DNA from: Trebouxia sp. TZW2008
Lineage: Eukaryota > Chlorophyta > Trebouxiophyceae > Trebouxiales > Trebouxiaceae
NCBI GenBank assembly: GCA_002118135.1
Contig: BDIU01000286.1
Span: 1 to 64,000 of the forward strand
Length of the DNA stretch: 64,000 bases
Reading direction: 5' to 3'
Under the pieces are notes generated by a model, which saw only the letters and a program-made list of their open reading frames with translations, searched no databases and had not been told where the DNA came from. The position numbers and the translations under genes were made by a program. Positions within the stretch are counted from its first letter, which is position 1. Every line of letters starts with the position of its first letter. This document shows, piece after piece, positions 3,960-63,332 of the stretch.

Positions 3960-5832
3960 ATGTCGGGCAGCTCACAACCCCCTTGGCATAACATGAATGG
4001 CGTCAGGCGTGTCCAGTCTGAGTTCAGGGTGAGCATTGTTATAGGTGCATTGATTTGACAACTTGTGTGTGCAGCAGAATTGTGGTGACGCATGCAAGGT
4101 GACTGCACTTGCTGTAAAACAAGAAGCTTGGGTTCAGTCTGAGTCTTCCAAACCGTCAACAGCATCATCCCATTGCATGCTGTATACCAGCACTTCTTGC
4201 TGCAGTACCTGACAAACAAGATCAACAGTCGTGAGTGGCCGCAAGTGAGAGACCTTCAGATGGTTGGGGATGATGTGAACAGATGGCGATTTAAGCTCGG
4301 CAACTTTGACAATGACATGGAGGGTGGACGCAACCTAAATGATGATCTCAATGTAAGCTCTAGTCAGCATGCAAAGCCAGCTCTACAATCACACACTCTT
4401 TGCTCTCGGCTGCTAGTGTTGCTTTGAGTTACAACTGTCATCAGCAAAAAATGCCATGCATGTAGCTTGCAAAGCAGCACCCATTTCATGAAACACTGCA
4501 CAGCCAGCAAGGGATATCAATAGCATTTGTTTTATACAATTGCAAAGGCTCAAGTGATGAAGGCATGACAGGCTGTGCATCATGGGAGAAAAGCCAGTGT
4601 GAGTGATATGTAAGTCAGACCACTCACTCCTTCTGGCCTTCTTCCATACTGTGCATCCTGTCAAGCCGTTTGGAGCTTCAGGCTGGTGCGTCTGAATGCT
4701 CATGTTTCTCATGAGATGTTGCAGGCATACAATCCATACCTGGAGCTTGTAGATTTTATTGCAGCACATGTTTGTGTGTGCCAAAACAATTGTGCAGTGC
4801 AGATTCTTGCTGCTGTGCATGAATAAGATCACACTCTGGTCGGGTGCAGCTTCCCAGCGGAATATCCACGCAAGCCATTTCTCATGAGATGCCTGGGCCA
4901 TACCCTGCATGCCCGTAACTTTTCCAACTGACTTGCAGTGCATCCTCATGCCAACCCTGTTGTGTAGTGCAGATTCTTGCTGCTCTGCATGGACAAGATC
5001 ACATTTTGATGGAGTGCAGCTTCCCAGCAGAGTACCCAAACAAGCCCTTTTTCCTGCGCATCATCTCCCCTCGTATGTGCTGGTACACAGGTAAATTTAC
5101 ATGTGGGTAACATGCATTTTGTGACATGCGACCTTGGTGTCATCATGCTAGTATCAGATTTGCTGCCCCTGACTGACATGCCCTTCCAAGAATGCCATGC
5201 CATTGCTAAATGCGTGAGCAATTGAGCATTTACACTTGACTGATCTGCATACATGCACACCTATCCTGCATGTGTTGGGAATGGACATTGTCGACAGAAG
5301 GTTAACACACTTTTGCAAACCTGTGCAGGACATGTGACAGCGGGGGGTTCCATTTGCATTGAAGCTCTGACTCTGAGCGGCACACCTGGCTCGTGGACCA
5401 GTCAGTACAATGTGGAAAGCATTCTGAACATTGTCATTCTCAACATGATAGGTGAGTTGACTTATTACCTTGCGCTTGTGAACTATTTGCCATTGCACTA
5501 AGTCCAACGCTATGGCCACAATAGGGGCACTTGACAAAAGTTGACGCCTTTATGTATCACAACAGGAGGCCCTGAGAGTACAAGCACCCCAAGACAGCTC
5601 TTGCCTACACCTGACAAAAGCATGTTGGTTTTGTGCAGATTGTGATGTGTACTGGATTTCAACCCCAACAGGCCCAGGGGGTTTGTCAGGACCCCTAAGG
5701 GTAGACTTGGAAGGGCGCTGGACTGGCAGGGGTAGTGTTATGTATGAATACAGCTGGCATGAGGCACAGGCAGCCTTCGAGCGTACAGCATCAAACCATC
5801 GGCGCTCTGGCTGGGGTCCACCTGGCAGATGA
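3960..5832 (+). CDS. Ubiquitin-conjugating enzyme E2, UBE2Q-like
   Basis: Five exons (3960-4028, 4206-4352, 4973-5090, 5329-5451, 5639-5832) join in phase to a 216-aa protein. The UBC fold is visible in the segments REWPQVRDLQMVGDDVNRW, ECSFPAEYPNKPFFLRIISP and GHVTAGGSICIEALTLSG. The Cys in GGSICIEALT sits where UBE2Q enzymes have their active-site Cys (GGALCMELL-type). The C-terminal helix and tail (HEAQAAFERT, then GWGPPGR) resemble the UBE2Q ending. Such E2s carry ubiquitin as a thioester for transfer to substrates, usually with an E3. This form is short and lacks the N-terminal RWD-like extension of animal UBE2Q1/2. Exon 3 has a dead duplicate just upstream. The start is the first ATG in frame with the UBC domain. 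Confidence 0.82.
4799..4900 (+). repeat. Pseudo-exon: upstream copy of UBE2Q-like exon 3
   Basis: This stretch matches the acceptor and 5' part of exon 3 (4960-5070), including the shared 'tgcagattcttgctgct' and 'gtgcagcttcccagc'. In the exon frame it reaches TGA/TAA-type stops and it lacks the later part of the exon. It is a decayed tandem copy of the acceptor side, offset by about 172 bases. Confidence 0.8.
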
Positions 5833-6391
5833 GCCAATCTAAAATTATTAAAGATGTGTCTGGAGCAATATCAGTGCGTTGGCACTGATGCTGATGTTAC
5901 AACGAACCTATGATGCATGTATGCAGATTGAATTGTCACTTGCACACGCAGCTGTGGTGCACTTATGCATGTTCCTGTACAACGCCCTGCCCTGAGATGT
6001 ATAGATTTTGCTTGATGTGTATGTGTACAATACTGCCAAACTGTATCCAGAGTGTGCCAAAGATCGATGACACTTCAGCCTGCAAGACTGAAAATCATCC
6101 ACAGGCTTACAGCTCTCCTGCTACTCTGAAATCAACTCTTTTTCTGATAGAATCGGCGAAAAAAAGAAACGCTCATGCATGCATTCCAGGCAATAAGATG
6201 CACGCAGTGCGAATTGGACGGCACGCGAACACACAGCTCTCAACCTATTCTCTCACACTGCCTTGTGCACGTACGTAGCGCAAGCAAACACCCCTTTGTA
6301 CGTCAAATCTTGACGCCTACTTCACCGATCGAGTCTGTGCACAGAGTCCGCGCGAACAAACCCAAACACGTCTGCTTAGGGGATCTTGCGG
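5833..6391. other. Intergenic: UBE2Q-like 3' end to proteasome beta-6 promoter
   Basis: No gene or RNA feature was recognised. The two flanking genes run in the same direction, so this holds a 3' UTR followed by a promoter. Confidence 0.5.
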
Positions 6392-7913
6392 ATGGCATAC
6401 ACTCTTGGCACACTTTCCACAGCAGCGCAGACAGCATCGGTACCTCATCAGCATCCATCATGGAGCCCGTAAGCATACATTGCTGTGACCATTGAAATTG
6501 CATATGTCGCTGTTTGTTTGCCTGTCCGCTGACCAGTTGCTGTGTTATGATCACAGGTACGATGACAACGGGGGGTACGTTCTTCTGCACAATTTCAGGT
6601 CGCAAGCTGCGCTATGATGTCCGTGTCATGGTATGACTGTGCCACTACTTTGCAGGACAGCAGTTGCGGTCGCTGGGTCAGATTACTGCATAATTGCAGC
6701 CAGCACAAGGCTGTCATCTGGCTATTCCATATTGACTAGGGACAGCAGCAAAGTCATTCAGCTGTGAGTAATCGACAACAAGCTGCGTCTCGTGTGAATG
6801 CCTTTGCAGGCGCATGAACATTTCCACATTTGCTCGTCTCACCTGCAGGTCAGAGCAGGTGGTTTTGGTTTCAGCAGGCTTTCAGGGTGACATCAGGACA
6901 CTGCAAAAGCTGATGCAAGTCAGGAATGTGATGTACCAACATAACCACCGCAGACCGATGGGAGTGAATGCACTTGCGCAGCTGTTGGGCAACACCTTGT
7001 ACTACAAGCGCTTTTTCCCATACTACACATGGAACTTGACATGCGGCCTAGATGACAAGGGTGAGCGTACTTTACGAAGTTGCTAGGAGTCATTTTGGAC
7101 TTTCTGATTTGAGATGCAGATTGTCCATGTGGCATGTCGGCATAAACTTTTGAGCTGTAGAGCTTGCACTTAATCAGTGCGTTGTCATAGGTCAAGGCGC
7201 AGTGTACACATATGATCCAGTAGGCAACTTTGAGCGAGTAGGTTACTCCTGCCAGGTAAGCGTGCCTCAAGCTGTCACCATTTCATACATACATGGGCAG
7301 TGCCAGATGTGCTATTTGGGTTTGTTCCTTGCACACCTTCATGACCGATGCCTGCTGGAAAGAGTATTCCTGCGGGTCAAGTCCATGTAGATGCAGTCGT
7401 GATGGCATAGAGTTGCTGTTGCCATGCAGGGATCTGGCAAAGATCTGATTCAGCCTGTGCTAGATAATCAGCTCAAGGCTGCAAGCCCTCTGCTAATTCC
7501 ACCAAAGGTAAATCCAGCTGTCGGTGACACCCTGCAACTTCAGCATTTCTTGCTACAGGCAGCCTGCTCATACCTGATGTTTTCACAAGACACCTTTGGC
7601 ATGTTGCATGCCAGTCAGGACAGGACAAAGCTCGATTCGGTGTCTTCTTCTACATAGAAATGTGTGTATTTATGCAGAACTGGATGACTTCATTGCCAGA
7701 GGATGAGGCTGTGGACCTGATCAAAGATGCTTTTGTTGCTGCGGGTGAAAGAGATATCTACACGGTCAGTATGAACCCTGCTGTGTACACCACAAGCCTT
7801 TTCTGGGTTCACAAATGATGTTGGTAACGGCAATGCAGGGGGATGCAGTAGAAATACTTATCATCAACAAGAACGGCACAAAGAGGGACGTGCTGGAGCT
7901 CAAGAAGGATTGA
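6392..7913 (+). CDS. PBF1: 20S proteasome subunit beta type-1 (beta-6)
   Basis: Eight exons (6392-6468, 6557-6574, 6656-6763, 6849-7060, 7191-7255, 7430-7507, 7678-7764, 7839-7913) splice in phase to 239 aa, close to the usual length of plant PBF1. Diagnostic beta-6 segments are NGGTAVAVAGSDYCIIAAST, SSGYSILTRDSSKVIQL, YYKRFFPYYTWNL, GAVYTYDPVGNFER and AGERDIYTGDAVEI. Beta-6 is a non-catalytic ring subunit, so the lack of a processed catalytic Thr is expected. Exon 2 is only 18 nt and encodes part of YDDNGG. The ATG at 6392 gives the usual family N-terminus before HPSWSPYDDNGG. A TGTAA, the polyadenylation signal common in chlorophytes, lies about 20 bases after the stop. Unlike its neighbours, this gene has short introns and no obvious exon echoes. 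Confidence 0.93.
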
Positions 7914-8461: not shown

Positions 8462-11400
8462 ATGCCAGACATCCGCGACCTGCTGCGAGCTAGCGTTTTG
8501 CCAGCAGCGTCAGAGCAGACCCAGCCAGCATCTCCATTAAAATCTCAGGATGAAGTTCTACCCACCAGCTATTCTTTCGTGAGGTATGCACACTTTGCTC
8601 AACTCGCATGTAGTATAAAGATCAGCCTGAACTGTCTGAAATCGTGCGCAGGAGTTTGCTACAGGGCAGGAGTGATGCAGAAGTCAGTGGACAACAGCAG
8701 GTTCATCTTGCATACCTCAAATGGAGCGCATACAAACAGGTCCGGCATGTCTTTACACCACAGAACACAACATTTGCTGTGAAGCGGCCAGCATCAAGCA
8801 GACCAACATTGCTTCTACATGGAGCATGCATCGCAATCACAGAGTCACAAAGGCATGCACCAGGCTTTGCACAACAGCCTACCTCATGAATGACGGCAGT
8901 GTGTACACTTGCCACTGCTGCTCTCCTTGCATAACAAAATGAGTTGAGGCAAGCCCTTGGCAACTGCAGACTTATGCCAAGCACACCTAACAACCATGCT
9001 GGATGTGTCAGCATTGCTAGTGCACATTGCATGCATTGTTGTAGGCATTGCAGGCATCATTGTGGGTAAGCTCTCATTCAAATGCAGATGCCAGGTCATG
9101 CTCAGTCCCTGCCAGCACACCCTGCACTCCAGACAACAGGTCCCTCAGTCCCTCCCCTGCCCATGATGCTCAATTTCCAGCAAAGGGACAAGCAGTCATA
9201 GGAAGCATCACTGTACAGGCAAAAGTTTTCTTCAATGCAGGTGGCGGGTCATCCTCAGTCACTGCCGGCACACCCTGCCCTCCAGACAACAGGTCCCTCT
9301 GCGCCCCTCTTGCCAATGACGCTGAAATTTGCTACACAGGTGCAAGCAGTCTACGGAGAAATCAGTATCCAGGCAAACCTGTTGTTGCATGCAGGTGGCC
9401 AATCATCCTCAGTCGCTGCCAGCACACCCTTTGCTTCAAACAACAGCCCCTTTGGTCCCTCCCCTACCCATGATGCTCAATCTTCCAGTAGAGGTTTGAG
9501 CAGCCAATGCTACAGTACAGGCAAATTTTTTCTTCAAATTCAGGTGGCTGGTCACCCTCAGTCACTGCCAGCCCACCCTGCACTCCAGACAACAGGCCCT
9601 TCAGTCCCTCCCCTGCCCATGATGCTCAACTTCCAGCAGAGGTTCAATCAGCTTGTGGAATCAAGACGCCACTGCTTAGTCAGCGTACAGCTGGACACTC
9701 ACGGAGACCTGATCCTGTCTGCTTCAGCATCTGGCAAAGTAGCACTGCACGACTTTGCCATCTTCAAGGAGTGCTGTAACAACGCCATGTGAGCTACAGA
9801 TTCCCTGCAAATCGTCTGCAAAGTCACGCTGCATTGACTCACAACCTTTAAGGATTGCTGTAACAGTAGGCTGCAACTTGCATCCTTCAAAGTAGCACTG
9901 CACGACTTTGCTATCTTCAGGGATTGCTGCAACAATGCCATGTAAGCTCCTGCAACTCCTCTGCAAGGTTGCCTGCACAAACTTGCATGACTTTGCAGTA
10001 TACAAGGATTGCTATGACAATGGCATGTAAGGCCCAGCAAGTCCCCTGCAAAGTTGCACTGCGTGACTTTGCCATCTTCAAGGAGTGCTGTAACAGTAGG
10101 CTGCAACTTGCATCCTTCAATGTCTGGCAAAGTAGCACTGCAAGACTTTGCCATGTTCAGGGAGTGATGTAACAACGCCATGTAAACCTCTGCAACTCCT
10201 CTGCAAGATTGCCTGCACAAGCTTGCATGACTTTGCAGTCTACAAGAATTGCTATGACAATGGCATGTAAGGCCCAGCAAGTCCCCTGTAAAGTTGCACT
10301 GCGTGACTTTGCCATCTTCAAGGAGTGCTGTAACAGTAGGCTGCAACTTGCATCCTTCAATGTTTGGCAAAGTAAAACTGCACGACTTTGCCATCTTCAG
10401 GGAGTGCTGTTACAATGCCAGGTAAGTACCTTCGACGCCCCTGCCATGTTGCCCTGAGCTTGTCATGTCAATAGAGCCTCCCTCTCGCGCCGCTCAGCAG
10501 TATAGATGTTCGTTTGTGCCCACTTTTGAGCAAGTGCATCTGGTCTGGCAAGCCACGATTTGAGCCATACACACCTAGCGCTTGTGCAGCCGCTTGCAAC
10601 ATCCAGTGTACATAATGTGGTCAAGTGCAGCTTTCTATTGCAGATTGGATGAGGAGACTCAATACAGGGGCTTGGATCCATTGCTGCTATTACAGTCTAT
10701 ACGCAGACTTGAGAGAGCCAGATGGCATCCAACAAACGGCAACCTCTTTGCCACAGTGGCTTGTTCAGACCGCTCTGTCTGGTTGTATGACGCGGAATAC
10801 ACCCAGGTATGCATCACGACCTCTGCTTTGGCAACTTGCAGCGTTGTAAGCCATGCGCGTGAGCACAGAATGGCATGACAAGCATGCGCATGCGATTCAC
10901 AAAAGGCTCAAGGGCAAGACACTGTCAATATTGCTTCTGTAAGTAGCCTCATTTGACATAATGTCAACGATACATTGGCGTGGCAAGCATACAGCATCAA
11001 TGCAGGAAGTATCATGAGACTCCAAGTAACGCATCTGTATTGCTTTCTGCATATGCCGCAGCATGTTCCCCATGAGCTTGTGCCAACCTGTGTGCTGATC
11101 TATGGTGCTCAGTGAGACTGCATGTCAGGTAGGATCCTCAGTGCTCTTGCTGCCTTGGAGCACTTGCATTAATGGCTTGACTCAGCTATCAGGCGTGAGT
11201 TTCAGCTTCAGGCAAGTAGACTGAGGCCGCAACACATGTGTGCAGCATACAGGGCGCCCCTTATCAGGCTCTCAGTGTGCCTGGCAGCCTGTGGAACGGA
11301 GTGGGCCTCACTGATGTCGCTCTGCCTGCGAAAGGCCCTTACGGCGTGATTGCAACTGGACATGATGGGCATGTAAGTTCCTGACTACTTGCCTGGTTGA

Positions 11401-17413: not shown

Positions 17414-20400
17414 TCAACCACCAACTTCAGATACAGCAGCTTGTTGTTTGGCTTCTTTATCACGCTGGCGAGCTCCAGCTTCTCTAAGCAGCCTTGCAAA
17501 TAACTCAAAGCTGGTAAATGTGATAGCGGCTGCTGGCACAGTTCTGAACATGTTGGTGGCCCAGCCCTTGTAGAAGCCCAACAGCCCTTCAGCCTGGTAG
17601 ACTTCCTTGCAGATGAGGCCAAAACCGTCAAAAGGCCCGAGCCCTCTCACATGCATCTGTGACCGCACCACTTCATGAGGGTAAGTGATACTGGAAGCAA
17701 TGGCCTGCAAGACACAGCCAGAGTCAGTGCAAGCTCCTAGAAGCGACAGATTTTGCAATTCAAAATGGGCTTCATTGGGCAGCTAAACTGCAGCAACCCA
17801 CAGAAACAAGAGACTGGCAAGTCATTGGATGTGTAAATGCATGTGTAAATGCAGCCTGTCAAGAGCTGCCATTGCAGCACAGGAGTGCCGCATGAGGATG
17901 AGCATACCACAACATTACGCCAGAAGCATGCCTCTGCTCAGTGCTGCGCATAATTTTTTATATTCCACTGTACGAAGCAATGATGTGGCTGTGGTCAGCG
18001 TGTTGCCTCTGCTGACTTGTTAGAGCAACTTTCATGCAGCAGCCACACCACAATAACCTTGACCCTGCTGCCACAAGCTTGTAGATTGCAAAGTCAAGGC
18101 AGTGTGGCATGGCTGCAACTGCATGAATTACATCTCACAATACATGCAGCTGCTAGGGGGCGAAATCGGTGCAGCCGCCCTGTGACTGATGCCTCATGCT
18201 GACACAGCCATTTGAAAACGTGATCACACCCTCATGCTATGGCTCACACACCAGCCAGAGATGAGTTCTGGTGGTCAGGCCGAAGCAAATATGCATCAGC
18301 TGCTGACGTTGCAACTGACACAGAAGGCAGCCCTCTAGATCCAAGCTGAGGCACACAATTCACATGACGTGGTCATGCTGGGCCTGATGCATGCAGAGGT
18401 CTGCAGGAAGGGGTGGCTGGGTGGGGAGGTACGGGCATATGACGGAACTGATGAATGAAGAGGTGTCTGTGCAGGAAAGGTGAGGGGAAAGGGAGGGGGT
18501 GCACAAGCTCAAGTGGGCTGGGGGTCACCGTGGCAGCAGAAGCGCACACAGCGACCTGGTAGGCGGGTAGCCGCTCTGGCTTGAAGCCATTCACCTTTGA
18601 GGTACTGCTCGCCAAGATTAGGTCCGCCGTCGAGAGCCGGTCGGCCTGCACCTTCTCGCCCCGTTCCCGCTGTCGCCGTTCGGACAGCCACCGCTTGAAG
18701 AATTCATACACTGGGAACTGGATGGCAACGTGCGATAGTCCAATAGCTGAGGCGCCCATCCCACTGCAGGAACCACACCACAAATCAAACTCTACCACAG
18801 ACAGATTTTGTGGTGCCAAGCAACACAGATCGAAGTAAACAGCATGTTGCACTTGTCTCAATATGGTCATTGTTATAGCGTTATGCTGCCATGCTATGAT
18901 GTGCTGCACTGCTGGGAGTCAAGATGACAGCCGATGCTGTATAGGTCAAGCATGTCACTCATGAGTGGTGCTTGACAGAAGAAAGGCTCAGTTGTCCAAT
19001 CAGCATACTGTATGAAATGCTAAAGCGTCTTAGTCTGACGACAAAAGTCCATGCAACACAGCTGTGCTACAGCAGACCTTGCATCAGTCCAGGAAGCTTC
19101 CTGTACTTGACACCTTGCATTGCAGTGCGGGTGTCACAACCTTGAAAGCCTAACATATTAGTACAACTGCCACATTCAAGACCGTATGGTCTGACACCAG
19201 CCATCTTGAATTAGACGTTTGAGCTAGTACAATGGGCTTGAAGCTGTTGACATGCGCACTGTAGCATCACTCAAGAGTCAGCACAATTGAATGTAATATA
19301 TGCTTGGTCCTAGTTGCCTTCCAGGAACAAGCCACTACCATGAAGTGTGCACTTTTACACCTTGGAATGCAGCAGTAAACACACTGCAAGAATTGCATGA
19401 CAGGACTGCATATGTTCAAGCTGCTTGTGTGAAGCTGTTCAGGTCAAGAATGCTAGCAAAGCATTACCATGCTAGACTTTGACAAATGCACCATAAAATT
19501 TGACCTCGATATTTTGACAGCATCTCAAGCTAGGTAATAGTTGCTTTTGAAATGAAGCAACATGCCAAACTTGCACTCAAGCCACCGCAAAAACTGGACA
19601 AGCCTTCAATCAAGGTCGTAACATGCACATGTTGCAATGCCAGTGGCAATGCTGCTGCTGATGGACTTACATAGTATTTTGATCTGCTTCTTGGGAAAAG
19701 CGCGGGGGGACAAGATGAATGAATGGAGCACCTTCCCTTGCCGCATCTTTGAGTAAAGAGTGCGTGGGCCCTTTTGGCAACAACAGCCAGCAACCCAGTC
19801 AAGCTGTGTTAAGAATGCAGCTCAGCCAGCGTTTTAACACGAGAGGCACCAAGCTGGAATGCTTTTTGCATAAATTTTTGCCCCAAGTTATGTAACGAGT
19901 TTGATTCACAACAGCATTTTCACCACAGAACTTTGGCAAAAGGCAAGATGTTCATGCAGTGCAGCATTGCAGCCAGAAAGCCACTTCACCCTATTCCAAC
20001 ACAGAGGGCGTGCTGAGCCATCTGCTCACTTCAGCTTTGATCTTATTGCAGATGTGTTGGGAGGAACATGGCATGGATTTAACTCACTTTTTTGCTCAAA
20101 CAGTGGCTTGCTCTTTGTTCAATGGGGTGCAATGGGCTCAGCCCCAATATTGAACGCTCCATGGACATCAGCACAGCGAGGGAGCTTTAGAGGCATCATT
20201 TCGGGTTGGGCCTGGGTGCTGTGCAAGCTGCAATGCTTTACTGCATGGACATGTTGCCTTGCCCCAAACTTCTGTGACAAGCTTGATACACAACAATGCT
20301 CACCAAAAAACTTTGGTTCAAGGCGTGATGTGCACGCAGTGCAGCATTGCAGCCAAAGAGTCAATTTCACTAACTCGAACACATACGGCTTCCTGAGCTA

Positions 20401-23339
20401 TCTGCTCACTTGAGCTTCAATTTTGTTGCAAACGTGTTGGGAAATACATAGCAGGAAATCAACTCACAATTCTGCTCACACAGTGACTGTGTTGTTCTTT
20501 GTGAAATGGGTGCAATGGGCTCAGTCCCAATGTTGACTGCTCTGTGGACATCAGCACAGCAATAGCACAAGAGGCATGTTTTTGGGTTGGGCCTGGGTGC
20601 TGTCCAAGCTGCAATACTTCACTGCATGGACATATTGCCTTGCCCCAAAACTTCTGCTGTGAATTTGGGACACAACAACACTCACCAACACAGGCTTGGT
20701 TCAAGGCGAGATGTGCACGCAGTGCAGCGTTGCAGCCAGAGAGTCAATTTCACAGACTCAAATACAAAGGGCTTCCTGAGCTATCTGCTCACTTGAGCTT
20801 CAAATTTGTTGCAGATGTGTTGAAATATATCTCGCATGGAATCAACTCACAATGTTGCTCACACAGTGACTGTGTTTGTTGCCCCATGCACGTCAGCACA
20901 GTGAGAGAGCATAAGAGGCATCAATTTGGGCTGGGCCTGGATGCTGCTCAAGCTGCAATGCTACACTGCATGGACATATCGCCTTGACCCAAACTTCTGT
21001 GGTGAGTTCAGAAGACAACAACGCTCACCAAGAAAGACTTGGTACAAGGCAAGATGTTCACGCAGTGCAGCATTGCAGATAGAGGGCCAACTCCACCTAA
21101 TCCAGCCTGTTTCAGCGCCTTGCGTTTGAAATGCAATCCAAACACAATGTGATTTTCTGAGCTCTTTGCCAAAGTGAGCTTGGACATTGTTGTAGACCTG
21201 TTGGGACATACAGGGCGTGGAGTCAAGTCACCTTTCTGCTCAAAGAGTGGAAGTATCGCCCATAGCGGCATGAGGTACAACGAGTTCAGGCCTAATGTTG
21301 TTTGCCCTGGGCACATCAGCACAGCAAGGGAGCGACCTACACAATCTAGCCCAGGCCATCCTGCCTGGCAATGATAGCAAGGCAGCGAACTTTTGCAACT
21401 CTTACCTAAATAATCAAGCATGCATTCCTGGTTGCCCCCTGGAGTCAAGGCAATGGTGCAGTCACAGTATATCTTGTCATAACTTTCCTGTGCTTTGGAC
21501 AGTTCTCTTGAAACGCTCTGATTTGGCTGAAAGCTTGCCGCAATTACTTATACAATTTGCCTGCGCCTTCCTGCTGAGCCAAGGTGACAAGCAGGGCTCT
21601 ACATCTGAGGACTGCATGATGTGCGCAACTTTGTGGGGGATGCAGGGCAACATTTGTGGGTCACAGTAGAAATGTATTGACATTGAGGCTAATTTATCTG
21701 GTTGGCTTCCTCGCCAGGGGACGTGGGGGTTGTGATGCTCTGCTGTCAAGGCAGTTGCCTTCCTGCTTAGCCAAGGCAAGGCAGCAAAAGGTGCTGTTCT
21801 TGCTATACCATCTGTTCCCGCCTTCCTGCTGTTGTAGCAGTAGTGGCAAACAGGGTTACATTGATCACCTACAGGACCTGCCCAATCTTTCCTGCACGGC
21901 CATGGTAGCAAGGTAGTGACAGATGTGGCTGTTCTTCCTGTATGATCCGCCCCCACTGTAGAGACAGTCATGCAAGATATGGCTTTAGCGCTTACCTGTA
22001 CAATCGGCCCACACCTTCCTGCTTGGCCATGGTAGCAAGGCAGTGGAAGGTGTTGCGGTACAGCGGCCGCCCAGCTGGTCTGTTGCCCATGTGCTGGACC
22101 TGCAGTCGCGTCTTGGCTACCCACAGAGGATTTGTCACTGCTAAGGTTGCTGCACCTGTGTACAGGCAAACAGACAACTTTGTGATATGTCTCAACAGGA
22201 ACGTCCTGCGGTGCGCTTTTGTTGCGGGAATGGTCACATGGGCTTCCATGGGTCAACTACAATGTATGGGCAGATTAGCAATTGGTACGTGAAGACATAG
22301 GCTTTCAAGGTGCAAGTCTTGATGCATGGACCAGAGTGCTATGGCTGAAACTGGTGATGCAATGCCAGAGGAGAATACCTGCTCCAACAGCAGAAATCAT
22401 GTGCTGCAGAGGCTGCGGAATGCCTTGCCGCTTTTTCATCTGCTTCTTCAAATTCTCATAGGTTGTGAAGTAGACCTGCGCAATACAACAGCTTGCTTGG
22501 CAAGTGCTGAATTCCCAGTCACGCAGCAATGGCCATTGAAGCAGTCAGTGCAGTGCAGCTGCATACAGATGCAACACTGAAGGCAGCACATGCACTGCAG
22601 CAGGCAGATGACTGATCAGGGCACACATTAATGACAACTGCTAGAACAGGTGCACCATGCAGCAGGACTTATGTTACACACACAGATTGCAACTGTGTCA
22701 ACAGGTGCAACAGTTGTTGCTATTGACATGCAGCAGGCTTGCAAATTCGCTGATGCATGGTGTACTGACCGCCCAATTTGGAAGCAGTGCTACAAACTGA
22801 GGTCCCAAGCCTCTGTAAAGCCCTCTGAAACCCTCCTCTGCCACAATTTGCTTGAGGCCGCCTGCAAAACAAAGGCATATCTAAGCAGCTGTCAGCACCT
22901 TCTGCAACATGTGCTGTGGGTGTGCACCAATGCAGCTGTCTTTTCGAGCGTGTAGCATGTATTGCGAAGTGCAGGGAATCAAGCAACATGCATACCATAG
23001 ATGTGAATGCCGCCTGTGTACTTTGCTGCTTGACCTCTTGCTTGTGTCTGCAACCGAGTCTTCAACACCTCAAGAGGGCTGACAAAAACTGCTGTTGTCC
23101 CACCTGCACACCAGCGAAAAGGTAAGAACTGTGCATCCAGTTCTGCAACAACCACCCACACATGACATCTTGCCTGCAGCCCCTCCAGCAAAAGCGTCTA
23201 CAATGTGCGGGTTGTCAAGGTATATGCCCTGCACACAGGACAACAGCTGCTTCTTGAGCAGTGGTTTTGCAAAAGATTTCACGTGCATCCGGTCTGACAG
23301 GGACAAGCAAAAGCTTGGGCATCTTCTTCGAAACGTCAT
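17414..23339 (-). CDS. Mitochondrial carrier, NAD+ transporter (NDT)/folate carrier subfamily
   Basis: Seven exons (23339-23174, 23103-22996, 22861-22770, 22475-22379, 22155-21996, 18763-18595, 17704-17414) splice in phase to 360 aa, typical for SLC25 proteins with an N-terminal extension. The three signature repeats are SPLEVLKTRLQ, NPLWVAKTRLQ and YPHEVVRSQM. The Trp in the second is characteristic of the NAD+/pyrimidine/folate branch. ISHVAIQF-like (GLSHVAIQFPVYEFFKRWL) and GLYRGLGPQFVALLPNWAVY segments match plant NDT1/NDT2 best. The family exchanges nucleotides such as NAD+ across organelle inner membranes; substrate and membrane are inferred, not shown. Intron 1 starts with GC. The 3.2-kb intron 5 contains a tandem array and exon echoes. 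The start ATG at 23339 is the first in frame; 23285 is an alternative. Confidence 0.88.
19910..21130. repeat. Diverged tandem array of roughly 340-390-base units in carrier intron 5
   Basis: About four units start near 19915, 20295, 20680 and 21015. Each carries 'caagatgttcatgcagtgcagc' or a variant, then 'ttgcagNNagag', 'cacttNagcttNNattttgttgcaNangtgttg' and 'aactcac'. No exon of the carrier is obviously copied here, so the origin of this array differs from, or is older than, the edge echoes. Confidence 0.75.
21340..21960 (-). repeat. Downstream echoes of the donor part of carrier exon 5
   Basis: Variants of the plus-strand sequence 'ccttcctgcttggccatggtagcaaggcagtgg' (exon 5 near 22010-22045) occur near 21350, 21560, 21760 and 21890. 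The one at 21890-21915 is the clearest ('tttcctgcacggccatggtagcaag'). In transcription order they lie downstream of the working donor at 21996. Confidence 0.7.
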
Positions 23340-29800: not shown

Positions 29801-32800
29801 GCCAAGTCACCTATTGTTGAGGAACTGCAAGACCACATGTTGGGATTGCAGCAACATCGTGGCCAAGTAGCTACTGAAACCAGTGCTAGCAGTGATCAGC
29901 AAGAAATGGCGCCTGCTGAAGCTGCTGCACAAGCTGCACTTGGAGTCCTTTCCAGGTGACAAGCCATCACTGCTTCATGTCTCAATACATGTGGTTGAAA
30001 TCCTGTTTGTGCTCAAGTCTCAGATTGCATTGCACTGTGGTGCACAGTCACATCTGCGCTGATGTCATAGTGGGTTATCTCACAAGCGTCGTCAAGTGTG
30101 GTATTGATTGTTGCAATTGCTACATGGCTGTGCCTTGCGTGAGGTTGACAGCTGTTCCGTCTAGCCAAGCAATTATACGCATTTTGTGTGCACATGCACC
30201 TTGTTAGCCAACAGCCTGTGTCCTGCAAAGACCAAAATGACGTGCTGACCTTATATTTCTATTTGCATAGGGGAGGAGCAGAAGCAGCTGCATCAATGGC
30301 TGCACAGCGCGCTGCAGAAACAGCAGAGGCAAACCTGCTAGACAACTTGCCTGAAAAGCTTGACGAGTTTGGAAGGGATGAAAACATGGAAGTACGGGAG
30401 GAGATGGGCAGACAAGCCCAGAAGCGGCATCAACAGTATAGCCATCCCCCTGCACAACCCCAGGTCGGTATCTGCATGCAACACATTCATTGCAGTTACC
30501 TGTGCACTGCCGGGAATATCTTTCTGGCAGAAGCTCAGCCCATTTGGCAGTAAGCATGCATCTGCAGCTAGTCACTTGAGAGCAACGCCTTGAGCTGTGT
30601 GTCTAAGGGCTGTTCAGGGACATGGTGCCTTCTTGACACCAAGTACTGCTAGTTACGATGTATGGCTTTCCCAGGACTTGAAGTGTTTCACAGCCACCTG
30701 ACAGAGAGCGCCTGGACTGAGTTTGTTCACACTCCCTCACATATGCACTTCAGCAACTGCTGTTTCACGTGGCTGTCAGCCCTGCAGTCCTTTTCAGCAG
30801 CCTGCCAAAACAGCAACGTAGAGTCTATCAGCCTTGGCAAAATTATAGTAGTTGCAGTGCTGGCTCCATTGTCTGCACACCTTCGGTTGATAAAACAAAC
30901 CTGCTGTATGGCCTACAGGAACAGGGTGAGGCATACCTACCTCGCGTTTGCGCAGGCACAGAGGTCAAATCAAACAATCAAACCTTGGCAAAATTGTTGA
31001 CAATCATCACTGCACTGGTTTAGGGTGCTGCTGAGGAGCGCTGGGGAGATGCCACAACAGACGAGAGCGACTCTGAGCTCACTCACTACCGCAGCAAGCG
31101 AGCTGAGGCTCTAGAAGCCTCCAGAGGCGTCTTTGCTGATGTCAGTGAAAGCTATGGCAGTCTGTGTGCTGTGGAGCGCAAGCTGGAGCAGTGGAAAAGG
31201 CAGCAGCCCAGCGCTTATGCGGACGCGTACATGAGTCTCAGTGTGCCTGCCGTCATGGCACCCTTTGTCAGGCTGGAGTTGCTGCAGTGGGACCCTTTGT
31301 TTGGCGGCAGCGCAGGTATGCAGCACATCAGGCACTCCTGCACAGGCTCTGCATGACCTGTGAAGGTGCTTGGATCACTTGTACACCAAGCATACTACAA
31401 GCTCACGTACACCATGCACACTAGAAACTCAAGGCATCATCAGCTTGGTGCTTAGAGGGAGTGTAGCATTTATTCCCAAAAGTTGTGATTATGCTGATGC
31501 CGTTGTGAGCCTCAGCATGCCTGTCGTCGTGGCACCCTCTGTCAGGCTGGAGTTGCTGCAACAAGACCCTTTGATCGTCGGCAGCGCGGGTGCGTAACAG
31601 AGCAAGCACAATAGGCGTTTCTGCATAGGTTTTGTGTGACATGTCTTTGAGCATGAGTGCATGCATGATCTGTCCGGTTGCTTGAAACATCTGCGCATGA
31701 TGCAACAGCTGAACCCCCATAGGTGAACTTTGCGCCGTACAGTTGCAACCCCAGGCTGTTGCTATTCACAGACACTCCCATCATGAGGCCTGATGGCATA
31801 GAGTCTCCTTGCTTCATTCATCACACGTACGACAACCTACAAGCAGCTCAGTGCTTAGCAGAAGTGAAGCGATGCTTCCTAATACTCGAGATTATTCAAA
31901 CAAACTGACCGTTGGACTGGAATATAAAAGTTGCATTTGCCTGGATAGCCTCATGTGCTTGGACAAGCTGTGTTGTTTCCTGAGATGACATGCAGGTCAA
32001 CATCAAATTGTTCTGCATCAAATTGTTCTGCTATAGCTCGTTAAATATGCATGAACCAGCTAGCGAGTGGTGCTTGGAAAAGTCCTGTACGTTCCAAGGG
32101 TTGCAGCATGCATAGCAAGGCCTGTCAGAAGGGGTTGCATGCTCTCGCATCAAACGCTTGATGCAGGAGCATGCGGCTCTTGTGACAGGTCAAGCAGCAT
32201 CTGCGCCTTTGACAAGTCAGGTAGCATATGCACCTCAGCCAGCATTCAGCTATGAGGTATAGCCCGGTTTCAGCTCTACATGGGCACCACCCAGCCCAAA
32301 TCACCCCAACTGCTGGCGTTGTACATCATCAGGCACACAGCCTTATGTGACCACCAAAACAAGCCAGCCTGGCCGCAACTTGCGTCACTCACAGCCGGCA
32401 CTCGTGCCAGCATGGGCGACATCTAAGACAGCAGGCAGCGCATTCCTGTGCTGTGTGACAGCTCACTGTCGTATGCCAAGACCTTCCCAAGCAGCTTTGA
32501 TTATGATTTGCCTGCTGAGGCAACTGCACCTGGCAATAGCGCAGACTCAGATGAGGGAGTCATTTCTCGCTCGGTGCCACAGCTGGTGCTGCCAGGTGGC
32601 TCTCATGGCCTAATGTTGCTTGTCATTAAGTACAGCAGATCTCTGAGCTGACTGAATCATCACTGCTGACTGCAGGCTTTGACAGCCAGGACTGGTACAA
32701 GCAGCTTTTTGAGTACGGTCTCTCAACTGACGCAGCCCCAACAAGCAACAGCGCAGACCCAGATGAGGAACTCATACCTCGCTTGGTGTCACAGCTGGTG

Positions 32801-46200: not shown

Positions 46201-49200
46201 GACAGACAGTCTGCAAGCGGGACTTACAGGGTTGACCATGAGCATGCCCTTCATGATGTGGCGCAGGTGATGGGTGCAGGTGTCGGGCAGGGGGTCATAC
46301 ACCCCCTTCACAATGGCCTTGAACAGGCCGCCCTGATCCTTTGCCTTAAATGGCAAACGCCCCTGCACCCATCACACTGAGTCTGAATGTAAACAGCAGG
46401 ACTGCTATAAGCATTGCATTGGACAACTCCAGGGGCAGCAGACTGACGATTGCGCACGATCCCATTTGACCTGGAATGATGTGTGCAGAGCTTGACTGAA
46501 CTTCATTGACAGTGTGTAAGGAAGTCAAAAGCACCCTCTTGATTGATGCTCTGCACGACAACAGCAAGAATTGGGTTTGATGCCCTCAGCAAGCCAACAA
46601 GGCTATGATGCATATGCCAAGGTTCCACCTCCCTGGTCAAATCACTTTCTTATGTCTGTTGTGTTGTATGCATCCAAGGCAGTGAATCACCATAATCTCC
46701 GTTTCATTGATTGATAATGTAACATACTTGCATCTTTGGAATTATGCGTTGGGCCCACCGTGTTGCTTTGTTTCACAATTTGCACTGCATCTGAGTGGTT
46801 CATACTTTTGAATACTGCGTACTGCATATTATGTATTGGGTATCGAGTATTGCATATGGTCATTCACTGATCTTAGGCAATTGGCAGCATCACTTGCCTG
46901 CAGTCACACTCCCAAGTGTGACAGCATGACTTGCCTGCAACAGCTCATACAGAATGACGCCCAGGCTCCAGATGTCGGCAGCAGGACCACTGTATTCCTT
47001 GCCCTGGACTTTCTGGGGCAGTACAATCACAAGAGGTCGCACACATACACACACCCCCAAGTGACAGTATCACTTGCCTGCAGTAGCTCGTACAGAATAA
47101 CGCCCAGGCTCCAGATGTCAACAGCTGGGCCGCTGTACTCCTTGCCTTGGACGATCTCAGGAGCAGTGAACTCAGGAGTACCACACAATTGACGCAGGTT
47201 GCCGGAAAAGGGTGTGGTGATTCCAGCCAGCCCAAAATCAGCAATCTTGACGTTCATGGCCTCGTCCATGAGGATGTTCTCTGGCTTCAGGTCTCGATGA
47301 ATCACCCTCCTGTAGGAATTCATCAAGCAAGCAATCAATTAACTGCTCCTGACTGCCTTACCGTGGTCCCTCTTGCAACTGTCACTCTGCTCTGCAAGCG
47401 TCATTCACTGGTCAAGTATCACAGCAACAGACTGAGACCCCCTCAAAGCATTTTGAAATTGGCAGCAGAGTGCACTTGACAAATGCGTAGATAGATGATG
47501 CCATCAGCAGGAACGATGGTAGCAGAAAAATGACATGTAACAGTAACACGTATAATGTCAATCATCTAAATGACTCGAGCTTTCTTCACACACGACACTT
47601 GGATGGTACTGGAATCAACTGCTGACCTCCTGTGGCAGTAGTCCATGGCACTAAGAACTTGCTGGAAAATACGCTTTGCCTCCTCTTCCTCCAGCTTTGC
47701 CCCTGGCTGCATCACAGCACAACAAAGCTGGATGCAGCTCTTCATACATGCTCTAAGGGACAGCACTCAAAGAGTCTCCAGTTGCACAATACAGAAGGGT
47801 GTTGTTTGCACTTTTTCGCACTGACATACTCATGATAGAGCACAAGGTGTTTGTAATGAAAGTCAAAGCAGCAAATAGATTGTACAGGTTGCTGACAGCT
47901 TACGGCATTTGATTTTTGGATGGAGAGATGCACAAATTGATCACTGCATTATTCAGCGACTAACTTGTTAAGTGTCTGGTTTGTGAAGTGATTGACTGAT
48001 TGCTGAAGTGACATCACAGGAGATGCTGTCCAACAAATTGCAGGCATTGATGAGGATACAAGTCATGCAGGACAGCTGACAATCACCTGCTTCCTGACTC
48101 AGTCTGCCGGGCACCCGCCAGAGGCGTACTCCATAACAGCATAATAATCTAGAAGATGTTGTTGGTCAAGTGCACGTCCAGCAAGCAGACAATACACTGC
48201 AAGCTGGTTGTGCGCAAATGTAAAAGGATGCACTCCATGCAAGATTATGCGGCGTTTGCAGCAGCTTAGATGTGAGTTCTGTCACAGCTGCTTCCATGCC
48301 CAAGCATTGTCAGAGGGCACTCTCACATCAACGTCAAGGCATAGAGAGCTTTAGGTTGCTTTATCTGGCACCATTGATTTTGGGACATAATCCACTAGGG
48401 ATCCACCAGAAGCCACCTCTATACTCAAATAGAAAATGTTGGCAAAATGCATGTCCAGCAGGCAGATGATGCAGGGGAAGAAGGAGAAGGGACAACGCAC
48501 AAAGAGACAAAGCAAAAGAAGGGCTGACACAAGAGAACAAGAGGAACGTGGTGACAAGAGTTTGCAATGTGCTGAGTGCTGACCTGTTTCCTGACGTAGT
48601 CTACCAGGCACCCGCCAGAAGCATACTCCATGACAAAGTAGAAGATATTGTTGGTGAAGTGCATGTCCAGCAGACGGATGATGCAAGGGTGCTTCAAGCC
48701 AGACAGCACGCTGATCTCATCCTGGATCTGGTCTATTTGAGCTATGCTGCGGAAAGTGCTGGCATCCACAGATTTGATGGCTACCGTCTCTCCTGCATCA
48801 TGGCAAAGAAAGCTGGGTAGAAGAAGGACAAAAGGGCACCGCAGCAAGACTGATACACTGCCCAACATGTACATAGCAGCATGATTGTCTCGCTGCAGGA
48901 TTGGGTTGATCCAGGTGAAAGTCACTCTGACCTGTCTGTGTGTTCTGCCCTAGGCGCACAACCCCAAAGGAACCCCTGCCAACCACCCTGCCTAAATGGT
49001 ACCGCCCCACCCGCTTCAGCTTGGATGCTGTTACATCCACTAGAAGGCACAGCTGGGTCTGAGCTGGCCCGGGCACAGCCCCTGCCCCTGCCCCTGCTGC
49101 AGGGCTTTCCTGGGTGCCCTGCTTGGGGCTTGCTGCTGCATCAGCCTTTGTGCTGGAGGCATCGCTTAGCAAAGGGAAATTGTAGGCTACAGCCCTGCAC

Positions 49201-52200
49201 AGCACATAGCACTGATGATGGCTAGAAGAATCATGCATGCACACTCGACGCAGCACTGAGCATTGCAGTGCGGTCATGTTGGCGCCGTACTTGGCAGTTT
49301 CGCTTATCAGTCAGCAGAATGCGCACTATTGTAAATCAGCAGGCGTTTCATGTGCTTCATGCAAACAATGATCCAACAATTCAGTGTAGAATCCTTCATT
49401 GTATCAAGAGTGCGGAGCATCAGGGCTCACTGGAAGGGCGTGCCATATTTCTTGTAGCAGAACACCTTGGCTGCTGTAACAATTTTGCAACAGGTGGCAA
49501 CAGTAATGTCATACATCAGAAGCACTGCATGTCCTGTGCAGCTCATCTATATGATTGCACAGGATTCTTGTTGAGCATTCTTGTTGAGCATTCACTGGAG
49601 GCACAGATTGCACATGCACTTGAGTACCTAGCTGGGCCTGCTGAGCCTGTCTAGCACATGTCTAGAACCAAATGAATGGATGCAGTTCAAGCAGCATCAG
49701 GGCTGACCAGAACGGCGTGCCGTCTCTCTTGTAGCAGAGAATCTTGGCAGCTCCTGGCTGACCACTGCGCTGCAGGCTGATCATCTGCCGCATGGCCTTC
49801 TTCTCACTAGATGGCCCACATACTGACAAACAGCTCATACCAAACACATCTCCATCTCCATACCCAAGCAAGGCCTGCAGCAACATGCAGGCTTCAGACT
49901 TTGAGGTTGAGTCATACTGACTTGGACAACGAGCATGCTAAAGCATGGCCTTTCTCTCACTAACTAGGCTGCACACCGACAGGCAGCTCATGTCAAACAC
50001 ATCTTCGTACCCAAGCAAGGCCTGCAGCAACATGCAAGCTTCAACTCTTCAACCTCAGCCTTCAACAAATGAGACTGGTTTTTCACAGGTCACATTTTGC
50101 AGCCTTGAAGCGCGTAATGGTGGAACAGCAGGCTGATCATCTGCCGCATGGCTTGCTTCTCACTGGATGGGCTGTACACCGACGAACAGCTCATGCCAAA
50201 CAAATCTCCATCTCCCTGCTCAAGCAAGGCCTGCAGCATCAACTCAGCCTGGTTGGCAAGACGACTTCAGCGTCTTGAAACCGGCAAGGTCTACAATAAC
50301 GACGCAGCCTTGAAGATTGAGAAGAGGTGCATAGCAAGCAGCTCGCGCCAAGTACATCCCTGCAGCCAACGCAGGCCTGCAGAACAATGCAAGTCCTCAT
50401 CATGAGACAGAAGAGCAAGCAGGTCATGTCAATGCCGCAAACAATTTGAAACTTCATAAAAGGCGTTCTTCTCACTGGAAGGCCCACATACTGATAAACA
50501 ACTTATGCCAAGCACATCTCCATAACCAAGCAAGGCCTGTAGCATTCTGTAGTCTTGTCTCTGATGAAAAGGCATGCAGCTGCAACATGCAAATGACGTT
50601 CAGATCAGCCCCGTCTGACAGTATCGTTGTCTTGGATCATAAGAACAGGCACAGTAACCTCTCTTTGTAGCGAGTGCTTTGGTCACCAAGAAGCTTGTCC
50701 TGACATCGAATTGTCCTTACTCAGAGGGGCCACCGCAGTCAGAATGCAGGTGCAGATTGGTGACCAATGGCGCTGTCCTTACATCAAGATTGTCTTTACA
50801 TTGAGTGTCCTTACAAAGAGAGTTCACTGTACTAGCATGCAGCTGGAAGTGTGGAAATGCTCGCTCAAGTGGCTGACCTGAAAGCCAGGGCTGGTGTCAA
50901 GGATGGGCACATCTGGAGCAGAGGCATCAGTAGTCATGAAGGCTTTCAGCAGCTCCCCATCCACATCCTCTTTGTGCATGACCCCCCCTTCACCCTCCCC
51001 GCCCCCATGGCCCCCCCTCTCAACCCCACACTCTTCTGTCAGCAGCAGAATGTGCTTCAGCACGTTGCCTATCCGGTCCAAGACCGGCACGCCTCTTATG
51101 ATGCTCTGAACCCTGCTCAACAGCAGCAAAATCACTGTCAGCAACTTGTTCATTCAATTGTGTATCAGGGTAGCTTTTGAACTTGAGGCCCCCCTTTCTC
51201 CTTCCCCACCCCATGGCCCCCCCTCTCACCCCCACACTCCTTTGTTAGCAGCAGAATGTGCTGCAGCACATTGCCTATGCGGTCCAAAACTGGCACGCCT
51301 CTTATGATGCTTTGAACCCTGCTTAACAGCAGCAAAATCACTGTCAGCAACATGTTGTTGTATCAGGATGGCTTTGGAACTGTGACCCCCCCGCCCCTTT
51401 CCCGGCCCCATGGCCCCCCTCTCCACCCCACCTGCTCTGTCAGCAGCAGAATGTGCTGCAGTACATTACCTATGCGGTCCAAGACTGGCACACCTCTGAT
51501 TATGCTCTGTACCCTGCTCCCCAGCAGCAAAACTGCTGCCAGCAACATGTTCATTCAACCAGGTATCAGGACGGCTTTGGTGAGGTGTGATGTGCATCCT
51601 GCTGTGCAATACTGCAAAACCAGGTTGCCCCTGATGATGCTCCGGACCCTGCTCAACCACAGCAGCATCACTTTCAGCAACGTGCATATGCATCGTCATT
51701 ACGCCTCTCAGAAGGCTGTGATGTACGCCCTGCTGTGGAGTACTGCGCTGGAGCTGCCTGCCTGCTTGCCTTGATTTCAGTGCAGACCCTGGACCTTGAG
51801 TGTTGGCGCTGAAGGCCAGGTGCCCAAATGCGTTTGCTGCCAAATGAAACAAAGCTTGCTGAACGGGTGCAGATCATGAATATGACCATGCCTGCTCATG
51901 CATAAAAAGGTTGCGCCCATTGACACTGATCACGTACTTTTGGTGACAATCAAAGTACAGAAGAAAGAAAAGAAAAGAAAAGAAAAGAAAAGAAAAGAAA
52001 AGAAAAACAAAGAAAAGAAAAGAAAAGAAAAGAAAAACAAAGAAAAGAAAAGAAAAGAAAAGACAGCCTTCATGCAGATGCAGTACAACAAGGTGTGCAA
52101 ACACTTGATGCACATGGTGTGGCTGCTTCTGCCCGCACTCTCAAAATAGTCTTTATAATTGTTCTCATGTATATTTGTATCTAACTTCGCATGTCTGTTG

Positions 52201-62000: not shown

Positions 62001-63332
62001 CAGACCACCTGTTACAGCTTTGTCAAACCACCACAGCAATGTAGCTGTACAGCCCCTATGTGCTGCTGAGGCATCTCAACAACCCTCTGCTGCCGATACA
62101 TGCGCTGCGCAGTGGCAGACATAGCAGGCGGGCAATCAAGTCAAGCCAGCTCAAAGGGTGGAGCACGGTTGAGAATGAAGAAACCGCCCAAACGTTGCTG
62201 AGTGTGTTGCAGAGCTGCAGTCAAAGCAGACTGTATCAGACCAAGCCAGTGGCGGGTGAGTCAGCATCAGTCATGCTTGCTGTTCACCCCAGCACTGCAG
62301 ACAGGGGGGCAAGGACGCAAGTCACGGTGTCATATTTTGCTGGGCTCTGTTGCGTCTGGCACAGAGACAAAAGCATGAGAGTTGAAAGAGCAGACCGTAC
62401 ATTGCTGAATGTTTTGCAGAGTCGCAGTCAGAGCAGGTTGTATCAGACCAAGACTGTGGCAGCTGAGTCAGCATCAGTCATTCCTGCTGTTCATCCCAGC
62501 ACTGCAGACAAGGCGGCAAGGACGCAAGCCATGGCGTCACCTGTGGCTAGCCCATCAAGACCCAGTGCATGCAGTCAAAGTCCTGCCAGGCTAGCAACTG
62601 CAAGGGCAGGGGCCAGTGGAGGTGATGTAGCCTGTGTCGCGCCACAGGTGAGACCCACCAATGCATCTCATTGTTGCAGACAGGGCAGCGAGGGCGTAAT
62701 CCATGGCATCACCTGTGACTAGTCCATCAGGGCCTGATGCATGCAGTCAGAGTCCTGCTGGGCCAGCAACTGCGAGGGGAAAGGGCACTGAGTCTGATTA
62801 TACAGCTGGAGTCTGAAGCAGCCTGTTGTATTAAGCTGTCACTGGATCTACAAAGTTAATGGAGTTGATCTAGCCGACTGTGCCGCAAATGAGACGCATG
62901 ACTGCAGTGAGTCGTCCCAATTTGACTGAATTGTGGATGCATCAGCACAATTGAAACCATCCTAGATACGCTGGCATACGCTGTTCTGATGATTTTGAGT
63001 GTTCCCGTTGAAGCAGCAGAGTGCCACGCAGAAACTTGCTGAACACCACTCACACCTTGCATCTGCATGCACAGGTGCCGCCTGTTGACAGCCTTTTGTG
63101 TGTTTGGTGCAGTTTTGAAATTCTGCTTCGAAATCAGCGATCAAAGAAACTTGTGATGGACCTGCAGGCTCAAGCAACAAGCCATCCTGCCAGCCAGGTC
63201 CAGACAGAGCCAATGAGCGCACGCATGTCGGCATGGGGTGATGCAGGCGTCTTCTTTGGCAGTGACCCCTTTCCACAGCCACAGGCTGTGCAATTGCAAG
63301 CCAAGCCCAAGACCAAGGCAGTCCATGCATGA
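59062..63332 (+). CDS. Coiled-coil protein built from short phase-0 exons, function unknown
   Basis: Starts at ATG 59062 (MRPPSATRSPKAGEAKKIKL). Exons that join in phase are 59062-59178ish, 59255-59306 (RARALDLVKRHCPEHL), 59411-59515 (KKTKWIVDLVQGIMSEH), a 45-nt exon near 59641 (AAAKQETADAVAESM), a 72-nt exon near 59900 (SSAALRQAQEETASVQQALD), an 87-nt exon near 60229 (SEVEAGKVALEQAEMAAVV) and one near 60849-60994. A later exon near 61541-61669 (TREQAAAAAAASLMTEQLAQ) is in another phase, so one connecting exon was not found. Exon 62419-62648 is Ser/Ala/Pro-rich, and 63077-63332 ends with SKKLVMDLQAQ and FFGSDPFPQPQ before the stop. Ala/Glu/Gln heptad-like stretches indicate a long coiled coil. 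No family was recognised. Confidence 0.6.
60379..60552. repeat. MITE-like element, copy 2
   Basis: 174 bases, same family and orientation as 50652-50829. The left end is 'cagtaaaatctctttgtaa' preceded by TA, and the right end 'ttacaaagagagtttactg'. The interior 'gtccttactcagagggaccac' and 'gtccttacatcaagattgtc' match copy 1 closely. It lies in an intron of the coiled-coil gene. Confidence 0.8.
61350..61530. repeat. Dispersed repeat, copy 2
   Basis: Related to 46690-46870. The outer parts 'gatacttcaaaatacttacg' and, inverted, 'gatactcaatacgcaatg' form an imperfect inverted repeat. It lies in an intron of the coiled-coil gene immediately before an exon. Confidence 0.5.
62205..62325 (+). repeat. 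Upstream echo of coiled-coil gene exon 62419-62648
   Basis: Repeats the acceptor side (TTGCAG, then SQSRLYQTKPVAGESASVML) of the working exon, which reads SQSRLYQTKTVAAESASVIP. The copy is still open but lacks the donor half. Confidence 0.85.
62668..62790 (+). repeat. Downstream echo of coiled-coil gene exon 62419-62648
   Basis: Repeats the middle and donor half ('gcatcacctgtgNctagNcc', 'tgcatgcagtcaNagtcctgc') of the working exon. It has stop codons (for example GTGACTAG) in the exon frame. Together with the copy at 62205 it shows the two-sided echo pattern around one exon. Confidence 0.82.

Follow-up and report, generated by a model that had tools for sequence, protein, structure and literature searches.

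In the stretch of Trebouxia DNA analysed here (the window, 64,000 nucleotides), several working exons are accompanied by decayed partial copies of themselves. The question is how such copies arise and why each kind keeps to one side of its exon. The first-pass annotation had claimed that copies of the acceptor and 5' part always lie upstream of the working exon and copies of the donor and 3' part downstream, and had seen in this a mechanism by which introns grow from exon edges.

Copies of exon edges and their polarity

Self-comparison of the window gave 51 repeat pairs, with 48 direct and one inverted among those less than 6 kb apart; only two of the 51 were non-local. A separate tally of local repeats gave 50 direct and two inverted in the window. 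Dinucleotide-matched random sequence, one per stretch, gave no repeat pairs. The working exons of the ILP1 and PAS/LOV-kinase genes were set by orthologous algal proteins and their copies located by tblastn; the UBE2Q exon was read by eye. An ab initio gene finder over-predicted exons and was limited to draft queries, orthologue-checked boundary proposals and a copy near 50020.

On the forward strand, direct reading places working exon 3 of UBE2Q at 4973..5090, and a faded copy of its acceptor and 5' part, with an in-frame TAA, at 4803..4886 (lag 170). We take the gene to be UBE2Q, following the first-pass annotation; a Pfam scan of the draft protein covering this exon found no ubiquitin-conjugating family, and a scan of the same-region draft protein over 3960-12900 gave a proteasome subunit only. 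The ILP1 exon at 31024..31315 (forward strand; tblastn of P0001 and P0005, 84-86% identity) has a downstream copy of its 3' part and donor at 31489..31609 (31490-31591 by tblastn, lag 274). The ILP1 exon at 32676..32926, placed by tblastn with orthologues, has echoes on both sides: its 5' part recurs upstream at 32496..32612 (lag 212), in an alignment starting 32 bp inside the exon, and its 3' part and donor recur downstream at 33084..33237 (33084-33125 by tblastn, lag 199). Upstream of the ILP1 exon at 33747..33931, placed in the same way, an array at 33307..33683 repeats the acceptor region and 5' part, with a tblastn copy at about 33315-33380.

The kinase gene is read from the reverse strand. 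Its PAS-kinase exon at 50878..51117 was placed by tblastn of P0056 and partly P0055, and two upstream copies of the 5' part occupy 51243..51615 (lags 206 and 195; tblastn 51323-51249 and 51605-51444). The PAS exon at 49706..49877 (tblastn; donor read as GTCAGC, position approximate) is preceded by an array of its 5' part at 49937..50551 with steps of about 147, 203 and 150-154, in which tblastn found copies at 50233-50129, 50367-50299 (weak) and 50539-50450, another lying near 50020. It is followed by a copy of its 3' part and donor at 49416..49475 (49471-49433 by tblastn, lag 277). Downstream of the kinase exon at 48584..48793, which is 94% identical to P0055, lie two copies of its 3' part within 48085..48477 (tblastn 48476-48384 and 48196-48087), the farther one with stops and a frameshift. 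The kinase exon at 47075..47311 (47075 approximate; 97% identical to P0055) has a downstream copy of its 3' part and donor at 46905..47018 (47018-46932 by tblastn, lag 143).

At all ten closely examined edges of these three genes the polarity holds, with acceptor-side copies upstream of the exon and donor-side copies downstream of it. In eight cases the aligned copy runs across the splice site; no clear crossing is seen on the acceptor side of the ILP1 exon 32676-32926 and at the donor at 48584. Each examined copy comprises one acceptor or donor region and the adjoining part of the exon. Stray tblastn hits scoring about 18-22 bits were taken as chance and left out of the edge count; one such match, at 26248-26358, lies 4.7 kb upstream and, if genuine, would break the side rule.

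The polarity extends beyond the window. In searches of the 68.5-Mb genome with five Pfam families, all 17 scorable partial-copy pairs outside the window, from about 14 independent edges, obeyed it; some of these rows share an exon (C222, C47), one (C207) is close to central, in one of the C47 rows the main match spans an intron, and a few echoes are weak (E up to about 0.5). The remaining 35 of 52 overlapping pairs were unscorable for side, being staggered in exon order (23), whole-length (7), overlapping in coordinates (4) or far apart (1). No opposite-strand pair occurred among 720 match pairs within 3 kb. Single-match contigs were excluded beforehand from the side count, and the kinase list also left out multi-match contigs that looked unpaired, among them C86, which has a pair within 3 kb with no profile overlap. 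The kinase search reached E values up to 0.001 with 114 of 663 candidates scored, and the kinesin search covered at least 122 of 157 candidates, among the matches listed; for the other three families all were scored.

The echoes are thus real and their polarity is confirmed. Among the examples originally listed, the UBE2Q, ILP1 and kinase edges described above were borne out. For the WD40, carrier, TPM-RING and coiled-coil genes repeats are present at the DNA level, the working copy not being fixed by homology (a search for WD40 homologues returned nine short proteins with uninformative names). DUF2993 exon 3 was not confirmed, as the region yielded only two weak, low-complexity-like pairs, within 40624-40851.

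Extent, size and age of the duplications

What the first-pass annotation missed is the scale of duplication. Diverged local direct duplications extend over about 17-19% of the sampled DNA, and local direct repeats were present in 22 of 24 other 10-kb stretches. These 24 contained 270 direct and 75 inverted repeats, 73 of the latter in a single stretch, L004; without it the numbers were 188 and 2. Because of its inverted repeats L004 was omitted from the counts of unit length, although it was kept in this tally; stretches under 9 kb (L001, L002, L026) were left out. An ungapped scan, with a detection of at least 0.72 for units of 45-800 bp in simulation, found 246 events in 294 kb and none in random sequence. 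Grouped into arrays, they number 139 (0.47 per kb) and take in 17.9% of the bases. Two of the larger arrays in the window lie outside recognised exons, at 9043..10456 (lags of about 85-154 and multiples) and at 19849..21333 (direct, lag about 375-383).

Most arrays have steps of 60-200 bp (107 arrays); steps of 200-340 bp are about sixfold rarer (17 arrays). Counted as single events, the drop above 200 bp is fourfold (152 versus 38); the other stretches show it clearly (124 versus 25), and it is weaker in the window alone (28 versus 13). A peak of unit length at 120-200 bp in a histogram from BLAST alone was discarded, since in simulation that search detected few or none of the units shorter than about 90 bp; in the ungapped scan the distribution is flat between 60 and 200 bp and then drops.

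Near-identical copies are rare: one of 150 gapped pairs reached at least 90% identity and five of 221 ungapped cores at least 93%. This scarcity reflects a past burst or a collapse of young copies in the assembly; a steadily running process fits it poorly unless such a collapse took place. Among the 150 gapped pairs with a lag below 300, no more than 65 abut within 10 bp. Where the window exon differs from its orthologue in Trebouxia C0004 or C0010, the copies match the window exon at 18 residues, the orthologue at 4 and neither at 12. This suggests that most copies arose on the window's own lineage. For the ILP1 exon 32676-32926 the counts (4 versus 2 and 0 versus 1) give no clear sign that its copies postdate the split from the other Trebouxia.

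Intron growth and competing explanations

In the ILP1 and kinase genes, the 7 of 21 introns that contain arrays have a median length of 877 bp, compared with 284 bp for those without (P=1.2e-4); after subtraction of the array bases the median of the array-bearing introns is 326 bp. One interval may hide an exon, and dropping it (848.5 versus 284) or splitting it (877 versus 287) changes little. The comparison covers two genes, and longer introns give arrays more room.

The earlier claim that junction-spanning tandem duplications lengthen introns while the outer copies decay is supported, as is the polarity beyond the window. We consider it very likely that many small tandem duplications, combined with splicing at the innermost site, have lengthened the introns and produced the arrays of fading exon-edge copies. 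Numerous head-to-tail duplications, mostly of 60-200 bp, would be placed without clear regard to genes, and pairs that do not abut would share this tandem origin. Where a unit falls across a splice junction, the protein would be kept only if splicing used the innermost site, acceptor or donor as the case may be. The outer copy, including its part of the exon, would turn intronic and decay neutrally, and the intron would gain one unit. Repeated rounds would then give arrays of progressively decayed edge copies pointing away from the exon. The use of the innermost site, also part of the earlier claim, is suggested by open frames and orthologues, that is, by sequence. In our view, repair- or replication-associated tandem duplication would be the most likely cause.

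The polarity itself requires no new machinery, as the first-pass annotation had also reasoned. It can be deduced from the combination of tandem duplication and conservation of the protein, and hence is a filter, not a mechanism. Alternatively, splice junctions could themselves provoke duplications, e. g. through R-loops or splice-site pausing, so that introns grow specifically from their ends. Nine of the ten arrays in the ILP1 and kinase genes do touch an exon edge, the tenth being a low-complexity pair within an exon, but random placement already predicts 7.2 of ten (P=0.17). Moreover, large arrays such as those at 9043-10456 and 19849-21333 lie off recognised exons, and local direct repeats occur in 22 of the 24 other, unannotated stretches. 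Targeting of edges therefore appears unlikely, and the proposal of an exon-edge mechanism was not supported, even if ten arrays leave room for a modest enrichment.

It is still less probable that the copies are functional, as alternative, mutually exclusive or regulatory 'poison' exons under selection. Open frames persist at 31490-31591, 32496-32612 and 46932-47018, and the seven whole-length copies found genome-wide are possibly real extra exons. Yet the window copies are partial, several have stops or frameshifts, and the predicted proteins P0001, P0002, P0005, P0055 and P0056 show a single copy of each segment. Tandem exon duplication would copy a whole exon, including its two splice sites and an open reading frame, and none of the window copies has this form. 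An origin from introner-like or other transposable elements is the most remote of these explanations. According to passages of PMC9860276, most reports of introners do come from fast-evolving lineages, green algae among them. However, the units copy the adjacent exon, and non-local pairs are nearly absent from the window. The three stretches tested, from the arrays at 51243..51615, 33307..33683 and 19849..21333, had no match in the 68.5-Mb genome beyond the array to which each belongs, whereas introners would place similar sequence at many unrelated loci.

Relation to known systems and implications

Tandem genomic duplication is a recognised route of intron gain (passages of PMC3443670), and the closest precedent is the potato RdRp gene, in which, according to the passages available of PMC4974935 (PeerJ 2016), a tandem duplication across the intron-exon boundary passed on the downstream splice signals. 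As at eight of the ten window edges, that copy spans an exon-intron boundary. It is described there as one recent event that created a new intron through an activated cryptic donor, whereas the alga shows many older events, on acceptor and donor sides and genome-wide, by which existing introns are lengthened. ATP2A1, as presented in PMC3443670, likewise combines a local tandem duplication within the gene with splicing that preserves the protein; there both new splice sites derive from duplicated exonic AGGT, a configuration found in none of the window copies examined, while in the alga an existing site is duplicated and an existing intron grows. Gao and Lynch 2009 reportedly also dealt with intragenic tandem duplications, including segments with whole introns; the passages citing that work concern new or duplicated whole introns and mention no side preference. 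Small tandem duplications from break repair form a short head-to-tail mutational class; what was available of PMC8355091 draws no link to intron growth. In rice, such duplications were reportedly described by Vaughn and Bennetzen in 2014. The first-pass annotation knew of no description of such a rule. This needs qualification given the potato precedent for a single event and the published intron gain by tandem duplication, although our literature searches found no paper that generalises the polarity into a rule or that describes such intron growth in Trebouxia.

A broader reading is possible but doubtful: a burst of duplication in this lineage of lichen algae, with a ceiling of about 200 bp, close to one nucleosome repeat or Okazaki fragment, could have left arrays over about a fifth of the genome and most of the extra length of long introns. 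Exon-edge copies would then be datable fossils and snapshots of ancestral coding sequence. By a rough estimate, the added bases amount to at most about 12% of the genome.

How introns lengthen by means other than transposons can seldom be observed. In this alga the recognisable exon edge on each added piece allows it to be identified, placed, sized and roughly dated. As a simple, annotation-based assay for growth by tandem duplication, the polarity can be applied to any genome, and exon-edge copies can make gene predictors call extra exons. Explaining the apparent size ceiling and the small number of young copies calls for both a mechanism and a history.

Exon-edge copies and their polarity

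The genome searched comprises 68.5 Mb in 527 contigs, with the window at bases 1-64000 of contig C272. An ILP1/GCFC protein, whose nearest named relatives are from Trebouxia species, is encoded at 26878-35200 on the forward strand. At about 45833-53470 on the reverse strand lies a kinase with a PAS/LOV-type region and a Ser/Thr kinase domain; its top match is a Trebouxia protein (88% identity across 51% of the query), and PAS/LOV-domain algal kinases are among its best matches. From these two proteins, the source is most probably a Trebouxia or an alga very closely related to it. Several donors of the kinase read GTCAG instead of GTAAG (exons ending at 52882, 50878, 48584 and 47627; range 47627-52882), and an A/G-rich low-complexity simple repeat is visible in the frame translations at about 51930-52100.

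Self-comparison of the window gave 51 repeat pairs, 48 of them local direct and one local inverted. The working exons, i. e. the copies taken as spliced, were set by orthologue proteins and in UBE2Q by direct reading; matches of about 18-22 bits were counted as background. Copies were found at ten exon edges (five in the kinase, four in ILP1, one in UBE2Q), several of them with stops or frameshifts. At all ten, acceptor-side copies lay upstream and donor-side copies downstream of the working exon, which is the polarity claimed by the first-pass annotation; if real, one background-level match would contradict it, as it lies on the wrong side of ILP1 exon 31024-31315, 4.7 kb upstream. The observation of exon-edge copies in the window is thus confirmed. 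As to the further examples of that annotation, repeats are present in the WD40, carrier, TPM-RING and coiled-coil genes and the DUF2993 example is weak; the polarity count comes from ILP1, the kinase and UBE2Q only. Close to the end of a TPM-RING exon, an abutting tandem duplication of 122 bp with 88% identity (55856-56099) is one of the less diverged copies of the window.

For a genome-wide test independent of these examples, five Pfam families were searched over the whole genome, and matches of a family at most 3 kb apart were compared for overlap in the profile. Among 720 match pairs (495 + 225), 52 overlapped by at least 18 profile positions, the cut-off used, and in 17 of these a longer match was accompanied by a partial copy. 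All 17 follow the polarity without a violation, in a small sample restricted to conserved domains; they represent about 14 independent edges, one pair (on contig C207) is nearly central and several have weak E-values. To this extent the polarity also holds beyond the window.

Scale and source of the duplications

Local direct duplications occurred in 22 of 24 other 10-kb stretches and made up 16.8% of their bases, compared with 19.0% in the window; dinucleotide-matched random sequence contained none. A scan designed for short units covered 294 kb and detected 246 events, whereas random sequence yielded none. These events group into 139 arrays spanning 17.9% of the scanned bases; at most about 11.5% of the bases would have been added (one smallest unit per array subtracted). 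An E. coli control of 30 kb gave one pair. Transposons or introners might be the source of such repeats, but three array stretches tested had no match outside their own array, which argues against both.

Array step lengths form a plateau at 60-200 bp and then drop (107 arrays at 60-200 bp versus 17 at 200-340 bp; counted as events, 152 versus 38), less markedly in the window alone (28 versus 13). Simulated detection was 0.72-0.92 at 70-110 bp and 1.0 at 150 to 800 bp. Long multi-copy direct arrays outside recognised exons lie at 9043-10456 (steps of about 85-154) and 19849-21333 (about 375-383), the latter with weak inverted matches inside. Unlike the other sampled stretches, L004 (G000:C18:10001-20000) contained 73 local inverted pairs besides 82 direct ones and probably has a different, palindromic or element-like structure.

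Age of the copies and intron length

Where the working exon differs from its orthologue in two other Trebouxia genomes (C0004 and C0010), the copies match the window exon at 18 sites, the orthologue at 4 and neither at 12. This sequence comparison suggests that most copies are younger than the split from these lineages; for ILP1 exon 32676-32926 the signal is ambiguous. Near-identical tandem copies were scarce and diverged ones abundant in the 294 kb sampled: among 150 gapped pairs with a lag below 300, one had at least 90% identity, 36 had 80-90%, 63 had 70-80% and 50 less, and 5 of 221 ungapped cores with a lag of at least 40 reached 93%. With constant birth, younger classes are never rarer than older ones, at any loss rate. 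Hence either the process slowed after a past burst or the assembly collapsed young copies.

Arrays were present in 7 of 21 introns of two genes, and these introns were longer (median 877 versus 284 bp, P=1.2e-4), as growth by duplication predicts and the first-pass annotation had proposed, although longer introns also give more room for arrays. With the array bases removed, the median of the seven was 326 bp. The interval 51118-52881 possibly conceals an unmapped exon; the medians were 848.5 versus 284 when it was omitted and 877 versus 287 when it was split.

Origin of the polarity

If a unit of intron tail and exon head duplicates in tandem, use of the outer acceptor would bring intron sequence into the protein, so that generally no acceptor but the inner one would be tolerated; the donor side would be the mirror image. 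With only the inner splice site tolerated, the polarity is what remains of random tandem duplication after purifying selection, and special exon edges are not required. Tandem genomic duplication is an accepted route of intron gain (PMC3443670), and a junction-spanning tandem duplication in potato (PMC4974935) is the same elementary event as in this genome. Neither a statement of the polarity nor such a process in Trebouxia was found in the literature searched, which covered few subscription papers.

The first-pass annotation likewise suspected a selection-based origin, and the mechanism that it inferred is right in kind. Of the 10 arrays in ILP1 and the kinase, 9 touched an exon edge versus 7.2 expected at random (P=0.17). 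On present evidence, the mechanism follows from tandem duplication across the whole genome and is not a device of exon edges.
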